DNA of 64,000 nt from an uncultured Opitutia bacterium (GTDB lineage: Bacteria > Verrucomicrobiota > Verrucomicrobiia > Opitutales > Opitutaceae), in the NCBI GenBank assembly GCA_903862955.1, contig CAIPAH010000022.1, positions 62,001 through 126,000 on the forward strand, written 5' to 3'. Below, piece after piece: positions 16,877 to 53,917 of this stretch. The position numbers were made by a program, and so were the translations under genes. Position 1 is the stretch's first letter. Every line of letters starts with the position of its first letter. The notes beneath the pieces are model-generated. The model worked only from the letters and a program-made list of their open reading frames with translations, was not told the DNA's origin and did no database searches.

Positions 16877-19036
16877 ATGCTCTCGATGAAACCTTTCCCT
16901 TCCTCCCACCTCTCTCGTTCAATCACGCGCAGCTTGTTGGTTGCGTGTCTCGTATCCGCCGCCGCGGGGACCCTCTGGGCAAATAATGCGGAGCTGATGG
17001 CCTACAACGACAGCGTCGGGGCAGCGGTCCAGCTGGAGAACTTCGAAGTGGTCGGCCAGCGCGCGGAGTCCAAGAACTACAAGGTCGAGAACAGCATCAC
17101 CGCCACGAAGACCAACACGCCGCTGCTGGACGTCCCCCAGTCCATCTCGATCGTCTCGGAGGAGCAGATCAAGGACCAGCAGATGCTCAGCCTCGGCGAT
17201 GTGGTCCGTTACGTCCCGGGCATCACCGCTATCCAGGGCGAAAACAATCGCGACCAGATCGTCTTCCGTGGCAACAGCACGTCGGCCGACTTCTTCATCG
17301 ATGGCGTGCGGGACGACGTCCAATACTACCGCGATCTCTACAACCTGACCCGCGTGGAGGTCCTCCGCGGGCCCAACGCCATGATTTTCGGCCGCGGCGC
17401 CGGCGGCGGCCTGATCAACCGGGTCACGAAGCAGGCCGGCTTCATCCCGCTGCGGGAATTCACGTTCCAAGTCGGCTCGTTCGGCGACTTGCGCGCGACC
17501 ATCGACTTGAACCAACCCCTCAGCAGCCAAGCCGCCGTCCGTCTCAACACGATGCATGAGGACTCCGACAGCTTCCGCGATTTCGTCGGGCTGCACCGGT
17601 CCGCGGTCAACCCCACCCTGACCTTCGCTCCGTCAGCCCAAACCAAGCTGACGCTCGGCTACGAGCACCTGCACGACACGCGTACCGCCGACCGTGGGGT
17701 CACGTCCTTTCAAGGCCGTCCCGTCGGCGTGCCGATCAACACTTACTACGGCAATCCCTCTGACAGCCATGTGCGGGCCACGGTCGACTTGCTGTCAGCC
17801 ACCTTCGAACACCAGGCCGGCGAGCTGACCCTCCGCAATCACACGCTGTTCGGCGGCTACGACCGCGGCTACCAGAATTACGTGCCGGGCGCGGTGAACG
17901 CCGCCCAGACCCAGGTCACGCTCACAGCGTACAACAACGCCACAAAGCGCGAGAACCTCTTCAACCAAACCGACCTGACCACCACGATCACGACGGGCGA
18001 AATCAAGCACACCCTCCTCGGCGGCGTGGAGCTGGGACGCCAGTGGACGGACAATTTCCGCAACACCGGCTATTTCAACAATTCCGCCACCTCGCTGCTC
18101 GTCCCCTACGACAACCCGTTGATCACCACGCCGGTGACGTTCCGGCAAAGCGCGACCGACGCCGACAACCACCTCGATACAACCGTCGCGGCAGTCTACG
18201 TGCAGGACCAGGTCGACTTCTCGAAACAATGGCAGGCCATCGCCGGCCTCCGCTTCGACGCCTTCGGCCTCGACTACCACAACAACCGCGACGGCAGCTC
18301 CCTCAGCCGCGATGACAACCTCGTCTCGCCCCGCGCCGGCCTGATCTTCAAGCCCGTCGCGAACGCATCGCTCTACGCCAGCTACAGCGTCTCGTATCTG
18401 CCCAGTTCGGGCGACCAGTTCTCCTCGCTCACCGTGATCACGCAGCAGGTCGAACCGGAAAAGTTCACCAACTGCGAGGTCGGCGCCAAGTGGGACCTCA
18501 CGCCCAAATTCTCCCTCACGTCCGCGGTCTACCAGCTCGACCGCACCAACACCCGCTCCACCGACCCCACTGACTCGACGCGCATCATCCAGACCGGCAG
18601 CACCCGCACCGATGGCTTTGAGTTCGGCGTGAACGGCAGCGTCACCGCGGATTGGAGCGTTGCCGGCGGCTATGCCTATCAGGATGCCTTCATCCACAGC
18701 GCCACCACCGCCGCGGCCGCTGGTGCGCAGGTCGCGCAGGTGCCGCACCACAACTTCTCCCTGTGGAACAAATACCAGTTCACCCGGAAACTCGGCGCCG
18801 GTGTCGGCGTGATCTACCGGTCCCGGATGTTCGCGGGCGTGGACAACACCGTCACGCTGCCCGACTACATGCGGGTGGACGCCGCCGTTTATTACGCTTT
18901 CAACCGCCAGTGGCGGCTCCAGGCCAACGTCGAGAATCTCGGCAGCACGCGCTACTTCATCAACGCCGACAGCAACACGAACATCTCGCCCGGCTCGTCG
19001 CGGGCCGTGCACGTCATGCTGCGGGCGTTTTTCTGA
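16877..19036 (+). CDS. TonB-dependent siderophore receptor
   Basis: This 719-residue outer-membrane protein has a signal peptide ([17 protein letters not shown]). A TonB-box-like strand precedes the plug domain ([66 protein letters not shown]). The beta-barrel ends with aromatic F (VHVMLRAFF). The plug motifs match catecholate-siderophore (Fiu/FepA-like) receptors. There is no N-terminal STN signalling domain, so it is not a direct partner of a FecR protein. The alternative start is ATG at 16886. No siderophore transport genes are adjacent. Confidence 0.9.
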
Positions 19037-22520: not shown

Positions 22521-23108
22521 TCAGTTCATGTTGGCAATGGCCGCCATCTTGGCGGCTCGGCCGTTCTGAAACAGCACCTGCATCGTGTAGGATTGCAGCG
22601 TCGCCGGCTCCATGGAGCCGCCCTGCGGTCCGCCTGTCTTGCCAATGCTTTCGCCCCCGTTTCGGTCCATGCCCAAGGGCACTTTTTCAGCGCCGAGGTC
22701 GTTGGGATATTCCCCGGCGACCGTCTGCTCCCGCGACATCTGCGGCTGGTAGGCGGACTCCGTCGTGAACGGCTGGTGACGGAACCCGTGCACCGCGTCG
22801 ATGTTCGGGTAGTAGCGCTTCCACGTCCACAGCTCCGCGTGACCGGCGGGGAGGTCCTTCTTCTCAATCGTGTCGGGCCGACCCATGGCAATGTAGACCA
22901 CGTCGGGCGTGAAGCCCGCGGCCACCACCCCTTTGGCGACGAACCGCTTTTGCCACGGATTCAGTGCCGCATATGCCGCGGGTTTTTCGCGCGCCCGAGC
23001 GGCGACGCCGCCATCGGTCTCACAACCGCCGAGCAGGAGGGCAACCAACAGAATCCCGCCCGTCCGCAGCACCGTTTTCCTCAGGGCTAGTCGGGTGCGG
23101 GATTTCAC
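22521..23108 (-). CDS. Lipoprotein, paralogue of 27684-28229 (BamE-like?)
   Basis: This 195-residue protein has a lipoprotein signal (GGILLVALLLGGC, Cys about residue 29). It is clearly paralogous to the protein at 27684-28229: shared (T/S)DGG(V/I)AAR, PWQK(R/K), EGFTPD(V/M)VYIAMG(R/K)PD, ESAYQPQ, SIGKTGGPQGGSMEPA and K(M)A...NMN at the end. The segment around GFTPDVVYIAMGRPD recalls the SmpA/BamE fold (two helices then a strand), but this is only a resemblance. The start is GTG at 23108. It lies 14 bases downstream of the secreted protein gene that precedes it on the same strand, so both may be one operon. Confidence 0.75.
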   Translation of the reverse strand: MKSRTRLALRKTVLRTGGILLVALLLGGCETDGGVAARAREKPAAYAALNPWQKRFVAKGVVAAGFTPDVVYIAMGRPDTIEKKDLPAGHAELWTWKRYYPNIDAVHGFRHQPFTTESAYQPQMSREQTVAGEYPNDLGAEKVPLGMDRNGGESIGKTGGPQGGSMEPATLQSYTMQVLFQNGRAAKMAAIANMN

Positions 23109-23122
23109 GGCGGACGGGGAAT

Positions 23123-24067
23123 TTACTTCGGGGGGTCGTGGTGGAAAGGTTCTCCCACCTTCATGGGCCCGACATCCACCTTGCTATCAGGGATGTTGGT
23201 GTTGATCAGAACCTCGCGACGCCGGGGCAATTTGTCAAAATAAGGCGCGCCCGCGTGGAGCATTGTGGCCGCCACCGTGTTCAAATCCCGGTTGGCGGGG
23301 TCATCGACGGCCATGATGGTCTTCCAGAGCATGTGGGGCTTCTTGGCGGACTTCCGCGGATATTCCCACGCGGTGACCCGGATGAACAGTTTCTCGAAGG
23401 AGGCTTTTTGCAGATTCGCCTCATGGCCGTTCTCCTTGTCGGAGTAAAGCTGGCCCCAATCCGTGATCGTCTGGGTGGGAGGAGAATGGTCGGCCGTGAT
23501 CGGCTGCGCCCAAGTGTTGGGACCTGGAGCTTCCGGAAACAACGACGGGCTGGTTCGCGTCGTCGCCCCCGCCTGACTCAGCAATTGTGACTGGCTTACC
23601 GCACCCGCCACGCCCCCCACTTCGCCCGTGTCGACCATGTAGGGATTGGTCAACTCGCCCCGCCCGTAGCTGGCGGTAATCAGAATGTCGGGCGTTTGCC
23701 CCGGCACGAATTCCTTGAAGCCATTGGCTTCGAGTTCGTTCATCAGGACGCCGGCAATGTACTTTTCATCAACCGGTTTGACCAGGTCCTCCGGGGCCTT
23801 GATCAGGCGGACCGCGAGGATGCCGTAAATTTTCCCGTGTCCGCCGTCGCCCGGGACCTTGTTCTTGGCGTTGGACCAGAGATAGGTGGTGTCCTGCACC
23901 GTCGCCCGCACGCCGACCTCGATCGGTTCGCCCTGCGCGGCGGCCCGGTTCGGCAGCGCCCCGAGGGCCAGTGACACCAGTATCAGGGCCCATCTGCAGA
24001 TCGACGGGTTTCCACGGGGCAAAGAGGAGCGTTCGACGCTCCGACCAAAGCTGGGGGAAGTTTTCAT
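23123..24067 (-). CDS. Secreted protein, DUF4136-like, paralogue of 26486-27649
   Basis: This 314-residue protein has a signal peptide (ICRWALILVSLALGALPNRAAAQ). The mature part resembles the protein at 26486-27649: a helix plus FKEFVPGQTPDILITASYGRG versus FRAIQKGQRPDIVFTVEYGRD, NPYMVD versus NPYLDG, LFIRVTAWEY versus LYIRLNAWQY, and AVDDPANRDLNTVAATMLHAGAPYF versus the matching stretch there. The pattern (a partner-level helix, then PDI(L/V) strand) is DUF4136-like. Unlike its paralogue it lacks the C-terminal STN domain. Function unknown; probably periplasmic. Confidence 0.72.
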   Translation of the reverse strand: MKTSPSFGRSVERSSLPRGNPSICRWALILVSLALGALPNRAAAQGEPIEVGVRATVQDTTYLWSNAKNKVPGDGGHGKIYGILAVRLIKAPEDLVKPVDEKYIAGVLMNELEANGFKEFVPGQTPDILITASYGRGELTNPYMVDTGEVGGVAGAVSQSQLLSQAGATTRTSPSLFPEAPGPNTWAQPITADHSPPTQTITDWGQLYSDKENGHEANLQKASFEKLFIRVTAWEYPRKSAKKPHMLWKTIMAVDDPANRDLNTVAATMLHAGAPYFDKLPRRREVLINTNIPDSKVDVGPMKVGEPFHHDPPK

Positions 24068-24223
24068 GGTTGGGGAAATTTGTCCCCAGCGGCTTCAGCT
24101 CGCTGCTCACCCGCTCATGGGTTGCAGTCGTTGCAGCACGACGGGGATAATGGTGAGACGAGTGCCCGCGAAATTCCGCTATGGGAAAGTGATCACTCGT
24201 CGGCAGGCCGTGGGAGTTGTCGC

Positions 24224-24757
24224 TCATTTGTTCATGTAGAAAATCGTGCCCTTCTTGCCGCCGGTGACCTGGCGGTGATAGATTGCCGTGACCGGTTTGC
24301 CTGTCGTCGTGTCCACGAGCCAAAAATCGCTATACAGGCGGCCTTCCTCCGTCGCTTCGCGACCGTGCTCGATCATCACCTGGTAGGTCACGCCCGCCCG
24401 CGCGTGGAGCGGCAGATAGGCCCGGCTCATCAGGTTGGAATAGCGGTATTCCACCGCGAGGGTGTGCGGGCCCGGGGTGACGGCCAGGGGCTCGTCCGAG
24501 TGGTCAACGGCGTCCGCCACCGGCTTCAGGTCCACCATGCTCACGAAGCCGCGGTGCGCGCTCTGGAAGATCCCATCCTCGCCGAGGCGCGTTCCTTTCA
24601 CCCACGCGACCGGCATTCCGCGCGCGGGCGGGACATACGTTTCCTCGCCAGACGTTCCCGTCGTCGTGCCGCATCCGGCCGCCAGCAAACTCAGGCCGGT
24701 CGCCAGCAGACGCAGGAACAGCCGGCGGGGATTGGGCGACAGTAGGGCGAGGCGCAT
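24224..24757 (-). CDS. Small lipoprotein, unrecognised
   Basis: This 177-residue protein has a lipoprotein signal peptide (LFLRLLATGLSLLAAGC, Cys about residue 29). The mature part is beta-rich (VTPGPHTLAVEYRYSN, YLPLHARAGVTYQVMIEHG), with the pattern of a prealbumin-like sandwich domain. No family is recognised. ATG at 24757 gives a proper basic n-region; a start 7 codons upstream is possible. It is divergent from the sigma factor gene; the shared intergenic region of 189 bases holds a palindrome GGGAAAATATTCCC (24860-24873). Confidence 0.7.
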   Translation of the reverse strand: MRLALLSPNPRRLFLRLLATGLSLLAAGCGTTTGTSGEETYVPPARGMPVAWVKGTRLGEDGIFQSAHRGFVSMVDLKPVADAVDHSDEPLAVTPGPHTLAVEYRYSNLMSRAYLPLHARAGVTYQVMIEHGREATEEGRLYSDFWLVDTTTGKPVTAIYHRQVTGGKKGTIFYMNK

Positions 24758-24946
24758 GAGGGCTTCGAAAGATTCCAAAGAGGGGCGCGGCTTCCGCCGG
24801 AAGGTGTGAAAGTCCGTAAGCCGGAGACGGGCGGGCGGAACTTTTCCAGTAGTTCAGCTGGGAAAATATTCCCGTCGCCGCCTGGTTGAATCCCCTCGAC
24901 AATCCCGACTTGCGGACCGAAAGAAGGGTGCGGTCCGACCCTTCCC
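24758..24946. promoter_or_regulatory. Divergent intergenic region upstream of the ECF sigma operon
   Basis: The 189 bases between a lipoprotein gene and the sigma gene contain the imperfect palindrome GGGAA-AATA-TTCCC (24860-24873). It is a candidate operator or promoter element for either side. No convincing sigma-70 -10/-35 pair is seen. Confidence 0.3.
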
Positions 24947-25474
24947 GTGAGCACTGACGACTTGGCTTCCGCCCGCTGGTTTTCCGAAGAAGTGCAGGTC
25001 CATGCCGGCGCCCTGCGGGCGTGGCTGAGGGGTTCCTACCCCGTTTTGAGCGACCCCGAGAACCTCGTGCAGGAGTCACTCACGCGGGTATGGCGTGTCC
25101 GGCAAACCGGCCGCGTCGAATCCCCCAAGGCCCTGCTGTTCACCACGGCGCGCCATCTCGCCCTCGACGAGCTCCGCCGGCGGAAAATCGCGGCGATCGA
25201 GCCGCTAGCGGAAATCGACGCCCTGCCCGTCTTTGATGACAGCGCCACCGCCGCCGATGTCGCCGCCCGCCACCAGGAACTCGAACTCTTGACCCAAGCC
25301 ATCCAGTCACTCCCCACCCGCTGCCGCCAGGTGCTCACCCTGCGCAAGCTCCACGGCTTGTCGCAGAAGGAGATCGCCGCGCAACTCGGCATCTCCGAAC
25401 ACACCGTCGAGGCCCAGGTCGCCAACGGCGTGCGGGGTTGTGCCAAGTTTCTCGCCCGTCACGGCCTGCCCTGA
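24947..25474 (+). CDS. ECF-type RNA polymerase sigma factor (FecI-like)
   Basis: This 175-residue protein has sigma region 2 (LRAWLRGSYPVLSDPENLVQESLTRVWR, then ALLFTTARHLALDELRRRK) and region 4 (IQSLPTRCRQVLTLRKLHGLSQKEIAAQLGISEHTVE). There is no region 1 or 3, as in extracytoplasmic-function factors. It is followed after 14 bases by a FecR-type anti-sigma/regulator gene and then by the STN-tail gene, so it is the head of a cell-surface signalling operon. The start is GTG at 24947. The target promoters are unknown. Confidence 0.92.
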   Translation: MSTDDLASARWFSEEVQVHAGALRAWLRGSYPVLSDPENLVQESLTRVWRVRQTGRVESPKALLFTTARHLALDELRRRKIAAIEPLAEIDALPVFDDSATAADVAARHQELELLTQAIQSLPTRCRQVLTLRKLHGLSQKEIAAQLGISEHTVEAQVANGVRGCAKFLARHGLP

Positions 25475-25488
25475 TTCTCCGCACCGCC

Positions 25489-26526
25489 ATGCCTCCGCCC
25501 GATTTTTCGTCTGCCTCCGCCGACGCCATCGAATCCGCCGCCGCCCAGTGGCTCGCGCGGCTCGACCGTGGCTTGGCGGAACATGAGCAAGCCGAATTCA
25601 CCGCGTGGCGGGAGGCGGATCTCCGCCACGAGGCCGCGTTTCTCCGCCTCGAAAAAATCTGGGGCGCGCTCGACCAAGTGGCGCGCTTGCGTTCGGCCTC
25701 ACCCGCCGTCGAGCCTGACGAGCTCGCGCAGCCGCGTCGGCGCGCGCGCTGGATCTGGGCCCCGTTGCTCGCCGCCGCCGCGGCCGGTGTTCTCGTCTTT
25801 TTTTCGGGCAACCCCGCCCGTGAGTCCCATCCCCGACCCCACGCCATCGTCCATCCGGGCCCGCAACGCCTTGCACTCGAGGATGGTTCCATCGTCGATC
25901 TCCGGCCTGGCGCGAGAGTGGACGTGAAATTCACCCCCGCCGAACGCCACGTCCGCCTGCTCGAGGGTGAAGCCTTCTTCACCGTCACGAAAAATCCCGC
26001 GCGCCCGTTCATCGTCAGCGTCAATCAGGTCACGGTGCGCGCCGTCGGCACCGCCTTCAGCGTCGGGCTGGATCCACAGGAAATTTCCGTGCTGGTCACC
26101 GAGGGACGGGTTCGCGTCGACGAGATTGCCTCCGCGGCGAGCGCCACCGCCCCGTCCCGCGAGCTTTCGGCCCTCGCCGCCGGCCCGCAGGGCGTCATCG
26201 CCCTCGCGGCGGATCCGGCGTCCACCCGTTCCTTGGCCGTGAAGGTTTCCCAACTGCCGAGCGCCGAGATCGACCAGGCCTTGGCGTGGCAGGGACTTCA
26301 CCTGGAGTTCATCGAAGTGCCCTTGGGCGACGTCGTGGCCGATTTCAACCGCTACAATCGCCGGAAACTCGTCGTCACGGACGAGGCCACCGCGGCGATC
26401 CTCGTCGGCGGAAATTTCCGCGCCGATAACCTCGACGCGTTCATCCGGCTGCTGTCCGCGGGCTTCGGGGTCTCGGCTTTTCCCCATGGCGACGAGATCG
26501 TCCTACGCCAGGTGCACGGCCGCTAG
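25489..26526 (+). CDS. FecR family transmembrane sigma regulator
   Basis: This 345-residue protein starts with a FecR N-terminal domain of about 60 residues (DAIESAAAQWLARLDRGLAEHEQAEF, WREADLRHEAAFLRLEKIW). One TM segment (about 95-112, PLLAAAAAGVLVFF) follows, and the periplasmic FecR domain (VRLLEGEAFFTVTKNPARPFIV, VRAVGTAFSVGLDPQEISVLVTEGRV). The C-terminal 85 residues resemble an STN-like signalling fold (LGDVVADFNRYNRRKLVV, ILVGGNFRADNLDAFIRLLSAGF). Such proteins carry a surface signal to the sigma factor, normally from the STN domain of a TonB receptor. Its 3' end overlaps the next gene by 41 bases. Confidence 0.92.
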   Translation: MPPPDFSSASADAIESAAAQWLARLDRGLAEHEQAEFTAWREADLRHEAAFLRLEKIWGALDQVARLRSASPAVEPDELAQPRRRARWIWAPLLAAAAAGVLVFFSGNPARESHPRPHAIVHPGPQRLALEDGSIVDLRPGARVDVKFTPAERHVRLLEGEAFFTVTKNPARPFIVSVNQVTVRAVGTAFSVGLDPQEISVLVTEGRVRVDEIASAASATAPSRELSALAAGPQGVIALAADPASTRSLAVKVSQLPSAEIDQALAWQGLHLEFIEVPLGDVVADFNRYNRRKLVVTDEATAAILVGGNFRADNLDAFIRLLSAGFGVSAFPHGDEIVLRQVHGR

Positions 26527-27649
26527 CCCGCGGTCGCCGGCCCGGAATGCCGGGCTGGGAGCATGCGGTCGCGTGGTGCTGCTGGCCGCGTGGTGTGCGC
26601 TGCTGCCGCTCGTTCTCCGCGGTGCCGGCAGCGTCCCGGCGGAAATCGGCGTTCGCTCCGCCCTGGCCGATCCCTACGCCCCCGCGCCCGCCCCGGCGGC
26701 GTCTCACGAAGACGGAAGACCGGGCCCGATTTATTACATCGCCTCGATCCAGCAGATCTCGGGCGACGAGCTGATTTCGCCGCCCATCAGCGTGAAGGTC
26801 TTGTTGCGGCAGGCCCGCCAGGCGCTGGACGCCCACGGCTTTCGCGCGATCCAAAAAGGCCAGCGGCCGGACATCGTCTTCACGGTCGAATACGGACGGG
26901 ACTGGCTGGACAATCCCTATCTCGACGGGACCCGCGACTTGCCTGCCGTGGTCGGGGTTTCGAGCGTCACGCCATCCAATGGCTCGGGTCTCAGCTTCGA
27001 ACAGGTGCCCCACCAGAACATTACGGGCGCACCTATCCAGCTGATGAATCAGTTCGAGGTCGGCCGGGAAGCCCGGATCCAGAAGGCGGAGTCCGAGAAA
27101 CTCTACATCCGCCTCAACGCCTGGCAGTATCAGGCCGACGCCAAGGCGCGGCCCCGGCTGTTGTGGGTGACGACCATGGTGGTCGACGACCCGGATCACG
27201 TCGACCTGAGCGCCGTGTCGGTCTCGATGCTCGCCGCCGGTGCGCCCTATTTTGGCCGGGAAATCCGGGACGGAGAGATCACGATCCCCGCCCCCGTCCC
27301 CGACGGCCATGTGAAGGTGGGCGCCCCGCAGGTGCTCGATCCCCTCGCATCGCCAGCGGCTCCCGTCGCCGTCCAGCCCCCGCCGGCGCCGCCGCCTGCC
27401 GCGGAACCGCGAAAGAAATTCGACCTGCCCGCCGGCGCCGCCGCGTCCGCCTTGCAGGCGTATTCGCGGCAGTCAGGCTTGGAGGTCATCTATCCGGTCG
27501 AGCAAGTCCGCGCGATCCGCACGAAGCGGGTCAGCGGTGAACTCAACCCGCGCACCGCGCTCGAGCGACTGCTGGCCGGCACGGGTTTGGTGGCCGTGCG
27601 GGACGAGATGACGGGCGCCATCGCGGTCCGCCCGGCTTCGCCCCGGTGA
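26486..27649 (+). CDS. Secreted protein with C-terminal STN signalling domain
   Basis: This 387-residue protein has an N-terminal signal peptide (VVLLAAWCALLPLVLRGAG). A DUF4136-like domain follows (about residues 65-300), paralogous to the protein at 23123-24067, then a proline-rich linker (APVAVQPPPAPPPAAEP, about 312-328). It ends in a domain matching the STN family (KFDLPAGAAASALQAYSRQ, VIYPVEQVRAIRTKRVSGEL, ERLLAGTGL). STN domains usually sit at the N-terminus of FecA-type TonB receptors or secretins; here one sits at the C-terminus of a non-receptor protein. ATG at 26486 overlaps fecR by 41 bases, coupling translation. An inferred role is input to the FecR/sigma pair. Confidence 0.75.
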   Translation: MATRSSYARCTAASPRSPARNAGLGACGRVVLLAAWCALLPLVLRGAGSVPAEIGVRSALADPYAPAPAPAASHEDGRPGPIYYIASIQQISGDELISPPISVKVLLRQARQALDAHGFRAIQKGQRPDIVFTVEYGRDWLDNPYLDGTRDLPAVVGVSSVTPSNGSGLSFEQVPHQNITGAPIQLMNQFEVGREARIQKAESEKLYIRLNAWQYQADAKARPRLLWVTTMVVDDPDHVDLSAVSVSMLAAGAPYFGREIRDGEITIPAPVPDGHVKVGAPQVLDPLASPAAPVAVQPPPAPPPAAEPRKKFDLPAGAAASALQAYSRQSGLEVIYPVEQVRAIRTKRVSGELNPRTALERLLAGTGLVAVRDEMTGAIAVRPASPR

Positions 27650-27683
27650 ACCTTCCCGGGGCCCGTCGCCTCGGGCGCCGGAG

Positions 27684-28229
27684 CTAGTTCATGTTGGGCG
27701 ACGCCGCCATCTTGGAGACCTTGTCCTTCTCAAACATGATCTGGATGGTATACGACGTAAGGTTCGCCGGCTCCATCGAGCCGCCCTGCGGTCCCCCGGT
27801 CTTGCCAATGGACGCACCTCCGCCCGGGGACATGCCCAAGGGGATCATTTTGCCGGTGTTTGGGTCGATCTGGGTGGTGGTCGCCTGGGGCTGGTAGGCG
27901 GAATCGGTGTTGAAATTCGCGTAGTGCATGCCGCGCAAGGCCCCATTCGTCGGGTAATAGCGGCTGTAGGTCCAAATCTCCACTTTGCCCTGCGGGAAAT
28001 CCTTGGTCTCCACCTTGTCCGGCTTGCCCATCGCGATGTAAACCATGTCGGGCGTGAAGCCCTCGGCGACGGTGCCCTTGTCGATGTATTTCTTTTGCCA
28101 GGGCTTCAGTGAGGAGTACGTGGCCGACTTTTCCTGGCTGCGGGCGGCAATGCCGCCGTCCGATTCACAACCGACAAACATCACGGCGAGCAGAACCGCG
28201 GCGCCGACGGAGACAGGGAACGTTTTCAT
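27684..28229 (-). CDS. Lipoprotein, paralogue of 22521-23108
   Basis: This 181-residue protein has a lipoprotein signal (VGAAVLLAVMFVGC, Cys about residue 21) and mature sequence highly similar to 22521-23108, the two sharing GFTPDMVYIAMGKPD, SAYQPQ and SIGKTGGPQGGSMEPAN. It differs in having a shorter N-terminus. The pair brackets the sigma/FecR/STN gene set, both on the minus strand. The start is ATG. Function unknown; a BamE-like fold is a weak guess. Confidence 0.75.
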   Translation of the reverse strand: MKTFPVSVGAAVLLAVMFVGCESDGGIAARSQEKSATYSSLKPWQKKYIDKGTVAEGFTPDMVYIAMGKPDKVETKDFPQGKVEIWTYSRYYPTNGALRGMHYANFNTDSAYQPQATTTQIDPNTGKMIPLGMSPGGGASIGKTGGPQGGSMEPANLTSYTIQIMFEKDKVSKMAASPNMN

Positions 28230-28396
28230 GGGGTGTTTTTGGGCGGGATTGAAACCGCCCAGTTCCAGACGGATTCAGGGGAGCAATCCACTATGCCTAT
28301 TTTTCGATCCTGCGGGCGAGCGATTTTTGAGGTCGCGCCACAAAAACGCAGGTTCGGGTTGTAAACTTTACCACCCGCGGCACGTCTTGGCGGGGA

Positions 28397-28813
28397 ATGA
28401 AGCTCTCCTTTCTCCTGGCGACCCTCGGCATCCTCCTGTTGGCGGGCTGTTCCTCCCTCGATACGCACCAATCGGCGGACTACAGCCACTACCGACGCAT
28501 CTACGTCGAGCACCGCCTCACCGACAACCACCGCATCGACGAACTGATCACCGCCGAGTTGAAGAGCCGCGGCTACGACGCCTCCAGCGGGCCGCTCACC
28601 ATGATGCCGGACAACACCGAGGCGATCCTCACCTACGCCGACCGCTGGCAATGGGATTTCAAGAGCTACCTCATCGACCTCGACGTCGAGCTGCGCGCCA
28701 ACTTCACCGACAAGCCCCTCGCCCACGGCCACTATCACCAGGCGTCGGCCGCGACCAAGTCCCCGGAGTCCGTCGTGCGCACGATCCTCGATCCGCTGTT
28801 CCCGCGCCGCTGA
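28397..28813 (+). CDS. Small lipoprotein, DUF4136-like
   Basis: This 138-residue protein has a clean lipobox (LATLGILLLAGCSS). The mature part has the DUF4136-like pattern of a strand, a partner helix and a second strand (DYSHYRRIYVEHRLTDNHRID, LITAELKSRGYDA, EAILTYADRWQWDFKSYLIDLDVELR). It lies downstream of a 167-base divergent gap from the 27684-28229 gene. It ends 8 bases before the convergent solute-binding protein gene. Function unknown, probably outer-membrane anchored. Confidence 0.72.
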   Translation: MKLSFLLATLGILLLAGCSSLDTHQSADYSHYRRIYVEHRLTDNHRIDELITAELKSRGYDASSGPLTMMPDNTEAILTYADRWQWDFKSYLIDLDVELRANFTDKPLAHGHYHQASAATKSPESVVRTILDPLFPRR

Positions 28814-53383: not shown

Positions 53384-53917
53384 ATCACAGCGGACGTTCC
53401 ACTCCGCCCTTGGCCGCTGGAATTCGCCCGCCATGAGAGCGAAGCGCGGGATCGCGGGTTTCAAGTCGGGCTCGCGGAGCAGCAGCGTGGCGAGATTGGT
53501 CATCGGCCCCGTCCCGATGGGAACGGTCTTTCCGGGATGCAGGCGCAGCTGAGCGGCGAGGAGTTCGACGCCGTGCTGTGACGGCTTGCGCGGCAGAGCG
53601 GACGCCGGGCGGGCACCGGGCAATTGCACCAACCACGGCCGCGCGACGGGACCGTTGGGCCAGATGTCAGGAGTGACGCGGCCTGGCAGTGGATGCCCGC
53701 CGCCGGCGGCGACGCGTACGCGGGCGCTCGGGCCCGCGGTGCTGGCAAGCAACGTCCGGGCGAGCCGCGCGCGGTTTTCCGTTTCGCCCAGCACGGTGCT
53801 CACGCCGGCGAGTTTCAGCTCGGGACTCGCGCAGATCAGGCTCAGCGCAAGGATGTCGTCCGTGTCGTCCCCGATGTCGGTGTCGAGCCAGACGGACTGC
53901 GGAATCTTCTTCGGCAT
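53381..53917 (-). pseudogene. Truncated nucleoside hydrolase (inosine-uridine family)
   Basis: From ATG at 53917 the frame has the nucleoside hydrolase N-terminal motif VWLDTDIGDDTDDILAL, ELKLAGVSTVLGETENRARL, VPIGTGPMTNLATLLLREP (calcium-binding region) and AEWNVRCDP (the NxxxDP motif). Homology ends at about 53,381, where it meets the truncated TonB receptor tail-to-tail; about 120 C-terminal residues, including the active-site His region, are missing. In the family these enzymes hydrolyse N-glycosidic bonds of nucleosides. Confidence 0.85.

Follow-up and report, generated by a model that had tools for sequence, protein, structure and literature searches.

How can a FecI-type sigma factor and its FecR-type anti-sigma be controlled from the cell surface when the gene behind them encodes no TonB-dependent receptor? 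This question is raised by a locus in a 64,000-nucleotide stretch of DNA from an uncultured Opitutia bacterium of the Opitutaceae (GenBank assembly GCA_903862955.1, contig CAIPAH010000022.1, here C22, bases 62001-126000), which was analysed at its full length and is referred to as the window. The source genome, labelled G000 in the comparisons, comprises 3.61 Mb in 31 contigs (completeness 100%, contamination 0.12%), and the names of related genomes point to a lake habitat. The third gene of the sigma-FecR block encodes B2, a secreted protein that ends in an STN signalling domain, and a sigma-type promoter is predicted within the sigma gene itself. Judged from sequence, it is somewhat probable that this is FecIR cell-surface signalling in a receptor-free form, which monitors an envelope assembly and in which a promoter within the sigma gene provides feedback through the anti-sigma. 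The core of the locus consists of the following features:

24947..25474, plus strand: FecI-type extracytoplasmic function (ECF) sigma factor of 175 amino acids (Pfam Sigma70_r2 and r4_2)
25206..25231, plus strand: predicted sigma-type promoter within the sigma coding sequence, at 265 nt from its stop codon, reading into fecR and the B2 gene
25438..26526, plus strand: FecR-type anti-sigma (Pfam FecR and DUF4880), with a probable ATG at 25489
26486..27649, plus strand: B2, with a signal peptide, B domain, proline-rich linker and C-terminal STN; shares 41 bp with fecR
26639..27280, plus strand: B domain of B2, with a PelC/CsgG/TraT/DUF4136-like predicted fold (AlphaFold2, VIA-align)
27404..27634, plus strand: C-terminal STN signalling domain of B2, matched by sequence to the FpvA, PupA and PupB signalling domains

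The sigma factor matches Sigma70_r4_2 (3.9e-16) and Sigma70_r2 (1.1e-7), and the NCBIfam FecI models only below their cut-off. The anti-sigma matches FecR (1.3e-18) and DUF4880 (1.3e-7), both above cut-off, and retains 56 of the 61 columns conserved in 37 relatives; its start is probably ATG 25489, unlike the boundary in an earlier annotation of this DNA made by a model from the letters and open reading frames (hereafter the original prediction). Related cassettes were drawn from a listing of FecR matches that covered 250 genomes, 148 of them with a match. The 18 taken from the 19 best rows of other genomes (L076-L093; G181:C570 was omitted) were supplemented by two loci picked by STN (L094, L095), then by 20 and finally by 40 hand-picked rows. 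L095 and some of the 20 added loci gave no complete cassette, and the near-identical loci L077 and L078 were both counted. The final sets hold 38 cassettes, one of them the window's (a sigma gene was called in 37), 84 genes in the codon alignment and 76 cassettes in the covariation test.

In the nearest family relatives, the gene following fecR encodes an STN-TonB receptor, about 1,000-1,330 amino acids long where complete. The STN begins at residue 25-89, ahead of the receptor, in 37 of 37 other cassettes, and is C-terminal in the window only; seven short or odd cassettes were inspected, and in each the STN is followed by receptor sequence or has it just past its end, in some cases interrupted by contig ends or frame breaks. 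FecR and STN similarities run parallel over the 38 cassettes (Mantel r 0.83; 0 of 2000 permutations), as they do for the window's own row (Spearman 0.59, p 1e-4). On these comparisons, the window's sigma factor and FecR belong to a clade in which an STN-TonB receptor is the usual third gene.

In B2, the STN occupies residues 307-383 and resembles the signalling domains of FpvA (5e-8 to the solved domain), PupA and PupB. It retains 17 of 19 conserved columns, the invariant residues of the B domain being retained too, and the frame is open over 387 codons with a third-position G+C content (GC3) of 0.835, like that of its neighbours. A plug or TonB-dependent barrel is absent from B2, which stops four residues past the STN match. 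The original prediction had mentioned the STN tail; that an STN without a receptor is the unusual point of the locus had escaped it.

The B domain was modelled with AlphaFold2 from 14 sequences; a single-sequence structure was poor (predicted local distance difference test, pLDDT, 38.5) and was left unused. The model of B2 has a mean pLDDT of 62.8, with the B core mostly at 80-92. Aligned by VIA-align, this core gives Z scores that lie close together: 10.6 for BDI_1242, 10.5-9.9 for PelC, 9.4 for CsgG and, over 129 residues, 9.0 for 4f54, a DUF4136 member. Among these nearest fold matches, all secreted or located in the outer membrane, several form rings. An envelope system, as originally proposed, is favoured by the kinship of the predicted B fold with outer-membrane ring and transport proteins; nothing indicates the building of surface structures that had been suggested with it.

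The motif for the sigma-type promoter was obtained by counting word pairs upstream of the receptor genes in related cassettes, which yielded GGAA(A)-CGTC: one word pair occurs in 22 of 37 upstream sequences against 0.4 in shuffles, and another in 19 against 0.1. The resulting matrix, TAAYGGAAA-N13-CGTC, was built from 25 sites and trained on receptor promoters alone. With this position weight matrix (PWM), the intragenic site of the window scores 24.2 bits, the best in the genome stretches scanned, and the score is reached by 5 of 20,000 synonymous recodings. Sites of at least 17 bits lie inside the coding sequence of 28 of the 37 sigma genes, at a distance to the stop of exactly 265 nt in 25, 268 in two and 322 in one, and all 28 have ATA, GTA, CTA or TTA as the codon ahead of the box. 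In the 84-gene sigma alignment, NTA is found at 66 of the 80 NTN codons of the site column, against 78 of 3,616 (2.2%) in 52 other columns. Protein constraint as the sole cause of the site was considered and rejected, since isoleucine, valine and leucine all use NTA codons.

Among 40 validation cassettes kept out of the training, nine reach at least 17 bits against 0.22 expected by synonymous reshuffling. The intragenic site agrees with the receptor promoter of its own cassette at 12.13 of 16 against 10.90 when permuted (maximum of 5,000 permutations 11.38; 76 cassettes), a covariation in which the two sites share variants such as TAGCAG and a minus-10 of CCGTGG. From its conservation in sequence, the intragenic site is a family-wide element. 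Some alignment columns hold in-frame start codons (codon +28 in 50 of 83 genes), so that the site might conceivably serve a truncated sigma product. Judged by eye, about 4 of 18 sigma genes carry the element in G118, from another family of the order; it is absent from E. coli fecI (best -5.7 bits) and from the second sigma-FecR cassette of the window's genome (C23, L055). Since the site reads into fecR and the transducer gene, the sigma factor would raise those two rather than full-length sigma. FecI-like sigma factors have been described as an exception to ECF autoregulation (PMC8103513), and the conserved intragenic promoter suggests a feedback loop invisible to scans of upstream regions. 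The site would also serve as a sequence handle by which the promoter of each sigma factor could be predicted from its own gene.

An antisense sigma-type site was also seen some 620-640 nt ahead of the sigma stop codon, at 24847 in the window and in 12 other cassettes (L077-L079, L081, L083, L084, L086, L087, L130, L133, L139, L144), even where no divergent gene start is nearby. A small-RNA promoter or self-repression is a possible function.

If the sigma factor is in use, its sites might be expected before the secreted-protein genes that surround it, which are listed here with their predicted promoters:

22521..23108, minus strand: A1, a lipoprotein with the BamE/GWxTD-like motif GFTPDxVYIAMGxPD, 54% identical to A2
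23123..24067, minus strand: B1, a secreted B-family protein without STN; weak DUF4136 match
24157..24181, minus strand: predicted promoter of B1-A1, TAGCGGAA-N13-CGTC, with a spacer 1 nt below the norm
24224..24778, minus strand: C, a lipoprotein divergent from sigma, with a paralogue at G000:C7:87743
24826..24851, minus strand: predicted promoter of C, TACTGGAAA-N13-CGTC, at 22.6 bits by PWM and also a pattern match
27684..28229, minus strand: A2, a lipoprotein paralogous to A1 and convergent with B2
28268..28293, minus strand: weak predicted promoter of A2, TAGTGGAT-N14-CGTC with one mismatch, at 14.7 on the flexible scale
28397..28813, plus strand: D, a lipoprotein like Sbal_3080 (below cut-off), without a sigma site

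A rigid-spacer scan of 253,770 bp of this genome on both strands gave only two sites above 22 bits, at minus 24847 (C) and plus 25210 (within sigma); a 960-kb Markov control gave none above 18 bits. With the spacer relaxed to 13-15, the three top sites in 263,314 bp are 25210 (24.2), minus 24847 (20.7) and minus 24177 before B1 (20.1). The B1 and A2 sites constitute weaker evidence, since they emerged only after the spacer had been relaxed, and the control for the A2 score holds 9 sites of at least 14 per 1.92 M positions. No sigma site lies upstream of D (best score -0.9) or directly upstream of B2 (best score -3.5), and none scoring at least 13 was found at the homologous A/B loci of three congeners (G004, G002, G006). 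The original proposal of a dedicated sigma factor amid repeated secreted parts thus agrees with the sites found at C, at B1-A1, weakly at A2, and inside sigma, while its corollary that a common promoter places all six genes under that factor fails at D.

Genome-wide, the spacer-14 pattern has 4 matches against 7 in the reversed control, i.e. no enrichment: two at the locus, one before exbB-exbD and one before another B gene. The spacer-13 pattern has 2 matches in 3.6 Mb against 0 in the control, one of them the B1 site, and 3 of the 6 pattern sites in the whole genome fall within about 1.1 kb at the locus. The match before the exbB-exbD operon lies 97 bp upstream of it (G000:C14:80142-80167, minus strand; locus L146), and that before the stand-alone B-family gene about 130 bp upstream (G000:C24:435196-435221, plus strand; L049 9201). 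Elsewhere in the window, a TonB-dependent receptor gene at 16877-19036 (plus strand) has an upstream region that scores just 10.0 for the sigma motif, and an 18.6-bit promoter-like site at 53780 (minus strand) lies within an open reading frame and is probably due to chance.

Comparison with congeners indicates how the block came to lie among these genes. The gene order is SBP-D-A-B-A-HisC-XylA in G004 and SBP-D-A-HisC-XylA in G002, both without the sigma block, and G006 reads A-HisC-XylA up to its contig end; in the window, the C-sigma-FecR-B2 block stands between B1 and A2. Homologues of C occur in four congeners (G002, G004, G006, G011), and no sigma gene was seen in the 2.6-3.5 kb read around each. 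On the simplest reading of these gene orders, the secreted set is older and the sigma block was added in the window's lineage. The link to sigma would therefore be a lineage acquisition and not obligatory, because G002 and G004 keep the lipoprotein set without the block.

Sigma-FecR genes adjoin a barrel-less STN protein in four further loci. This protein, STN.PEP, is degenerate metallopeptidase-like by eye and TPR-like, and represents a second kind of barrel-less transducer beside sigma-FecR (L068 9848-11836, L267 8614-10860, L268 9349-11496, L270 6932-9001). Between FecR and STN.PEP lie two B genes in G074, one A gene in G003 and in G008, and none in G082, so that three of these loci link sigma-FecR and a barrel-less STN protein with A or B genes. 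Among 16 fetched PEP loci, out of 36 genomes with a match, six carry an STN and 4 of these adjoin sigma-FecR, as do 0 of the 10 that lack an STN. An identical copy of the sigma-internal GTAACTGA box lies behind fecR, ahead of the B gene in G074 and of the A gene in G003; G008 has no such copy. The expectation that relatives would keep the secreted genes beside sigma is thus borne out for A/B-sigma coupling in G074, G003 and G008, and contradicted by the sigma-less sets of G002 and G004, with which the readable part of G006 agrees.

These observations can be assembled into a receptor-free signalling cycle. FecR would keep the sigma factor at the inner membrane, and the STN of B2 would dock on the periplasmic end of FecR and shield it from proteolysis. 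The B domain, with its predicted fold of the outer-membrane rings PelC, CsgG and TraT, would bind a partner in the envelope, for which B1, A1/A2 or its ligand are possible candidates. Were this partner to change, the STN would be withdrawn or altered, FecR cut and the sigma factor released. As output, freed sigma would raise C, B1-A1 and probably A2; from the intragenic promoter it would raise FecR-B2, for shut-off and re-arming, and not itself. In FoxA, the signalling domain is cut off in vivo; the same study shows that an STN on its own in the periplasm suffices to block signalling and to guard the anti-sigma FoxR against cleavage (PMC11637429). Because an STN alone protects an anti-sigma there, the soluble STN of B2 might, by analogy, act as the guard of FecR, its release triggering sigma.

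If a secreted envelope protein has indeed replaced the nutrient receptor as input to the switch, this would illustrate how the module can be rewired to sense cues other than a transported substrate. A doubtful but broader extension would make the locus one of an Opitutaceae class of receptor-free systems, in which sigma/FecR reads the assembly of an outer-membrane ring of PelC/CsgG-like and BamE-like proteins, with the STN either on a separate barrel-less protein whose gene adjoins the A or B genes or, as in the window, on the C-terminus of the ring protein, one ring then presenting many STNs to FecR. The sigma genes of the family would hold a self-promoter that has co-diverged with sigma specificity and selectively raises anti-sigma and transducer, and would hence be feedback-wired though "non-autoregulated".

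Several observations count against the receptor-free interpretation. The STN of B2 scores E 3.3e-5 and 24.0 bits against Pfam STN, under the cut-off of 28.4, and the B2 model is mediocre, with much of the STN part below 60 pLDDT. A protein spanning B and STN occurs in this genome only, of 252 family genomes (and in none of 141 relatives), so that the fusion may be young or non-functional. The B1 spacer is 13 nt, the A2 site carries a mismatch and the spacer-14 pattern is not enriched. At the intragenic site, the validation cassettes below 17 bits are the majority, which may reflect distant sigma factors using other boxes, and the permutations in the covariation test ignore phylogeny and common descent. 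The rarity of the fusion and the subthreshold STN would also fit a decayed receptor cassette, in which a B copy became fused, through a deletion, with the N-terminal end of a TonB receptor: the STN would be a passenger, FecR permanently shielded or unshielded, and sigma constitutive or silent. The absence of a receptor promoter from the region that separates FecR from the third gene points the same way. Decay is nevertheless unlikely, given the open frame with neighbour-like GC3 and the retained STN columns and B invariants. Furthermore, sites precede C and B1 in the window and none do so at the homologous loci of relatives, which argues that the sigma factor is in use, and cassettes that pair a barrel-less STN protein with A or B genes occur more than once.

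The exbB-exbD site and the TonB receptor gene of the window would instead suit ordinary iron or sugar signalling, with B2 as an adaptor relaying for a TonB receptor encoded elsewhere, whose own STN was lost or is shared; PUMA3 of Pseudomonas is described as also controlling exbB2D2-tonB4 (PMC4971064). However, the upstream score of that receptor gene is low and the exbB site belongs to the pattern that is outnumbered in its reversed control, which leaves a relay rather improbable. It is very unlikely that the sigma block merely landed among abundant Opitutaceae A/B envelope paralogues without a functional tie, despite the 9 B and 8 A genes of the genome and the sigma-less A-B-A order of G004: B2 carries a fused signalling domain, the highest-scoring sigma-type sites in the scanned stretches precede C, B1 and FecR-B2, and independent A/B-sigma cassettes exist.

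The receptor-free system proposed here shares with FecI-FecR-FecA, FpvA and FoxA a FecI-type sigma factor, an adjoining FecR with a periplasmic domain, and an STN homologous to those of FpvA, PupA, PupB and FoxA. It differs from them in that the window has no plug or barrel, the STN is C-terminal on a PelC/CsgG-like protein, and the promoter lies inside the sigma gene, with none between fecR and the transducer. In PUMA3 (VreA-VreI-VreR) of P. aeruginosa, VreA is described as a barrel-less, apparently periplasmic, signalling-only receptor (PMC4971064). There, however, the order is vreA-I-R rather than sigma-FecR-B2, and the system is under PhoB and not self-regulated. In Corynebacterium glutamicum, a sigma-dependent promoter within the sigH coding region drives only the anti-sigma gene rshA, with starts mapped 62-66 nt before rshA and a proposed role in shutting down the response (PMC3489674). 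The anti-sigma family of that system is unrelated to FecR; the window's element keeps one position in FecI-type genes throughout the family, and the transducer gene would come under it as well. VreA and sigH-rshA are precedents for the two unusual features, a barrel-less transducer and a promoter within the sigma gene.

Likeness of the modelled B domain to PelC, CsgG, TraT and DUF4136 (4f54) is confined to the predicted fold (Z 8.1-10.5): identities are 8-19%, B1 and B2 have no lipobox, and B2 has its extra STN. A C-terminal STN in a periplasmic signalling protein is also described for PupR, which differs in being the anti-sigma itself, with the STN at its extreme C-terminus; the same authors count over 8,000 SMART proteins in which the STN is N-terminal to other domains (PMC7186176). 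B2 would be an exception to that rule on the transducer side. In the literature searched, nothing was found on this locus, nor on the combination of features, a C-terminal STN of this kind, a B partner or a family-wide conserved embedded promoter.

The secreted proteins themselves fall into two families and two singletons. A1 and A2 are 54% identical over 182 columns (BLASTP E 2e-75), and B1 is 33% identical to the B part of B2 over 314 columns (E 5e-42); on these alignments, both pairs are true paralogues. The two flanking copies of one lipoprotein noted originally are thereby upheld, as is the pairing of B1 with B2. Their assignment to DUF4136 is weak by profile (for B1 against PF13590, E 0.003 and 18.4 bits, cut-off 32.8; no B2 match was listed) and better by predicted fold, although 4f54 stands there among similar scores for PelC and CsgG. 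A set of 31 invariant columns is common to 14 B proteins including B2. The A family, which looks BamE-like by eye, scores below cut-off against the GWxTD profiles (for A2, Pfam 14.3 against 26.9 and NCBIfam 19 against 28). C and D have no match to the A and B families beyond signal peptides, and D scores below cut-off against the Sbal_3080 lipoprotein family. The start of C is TTG 24778 or ATG 24757, which differs from the boundary first given, and 14 bp separate B1 from A1 next downstream. Lipoboxes of A1, A2, C and D were read by eye; none was found in B1 or B2.

Both families are widespread: A was matched in 81 and B in 73 of the 141 genomes searched, the latter count including genomes matched through STN alone. 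The window's genome also has a B-B-B-A cluster at C22:25794-29057, and tandem arrays of A-family lipoproteins, with four matches each, occur in L282, L283 and L284 (in G031, G074 and G059).

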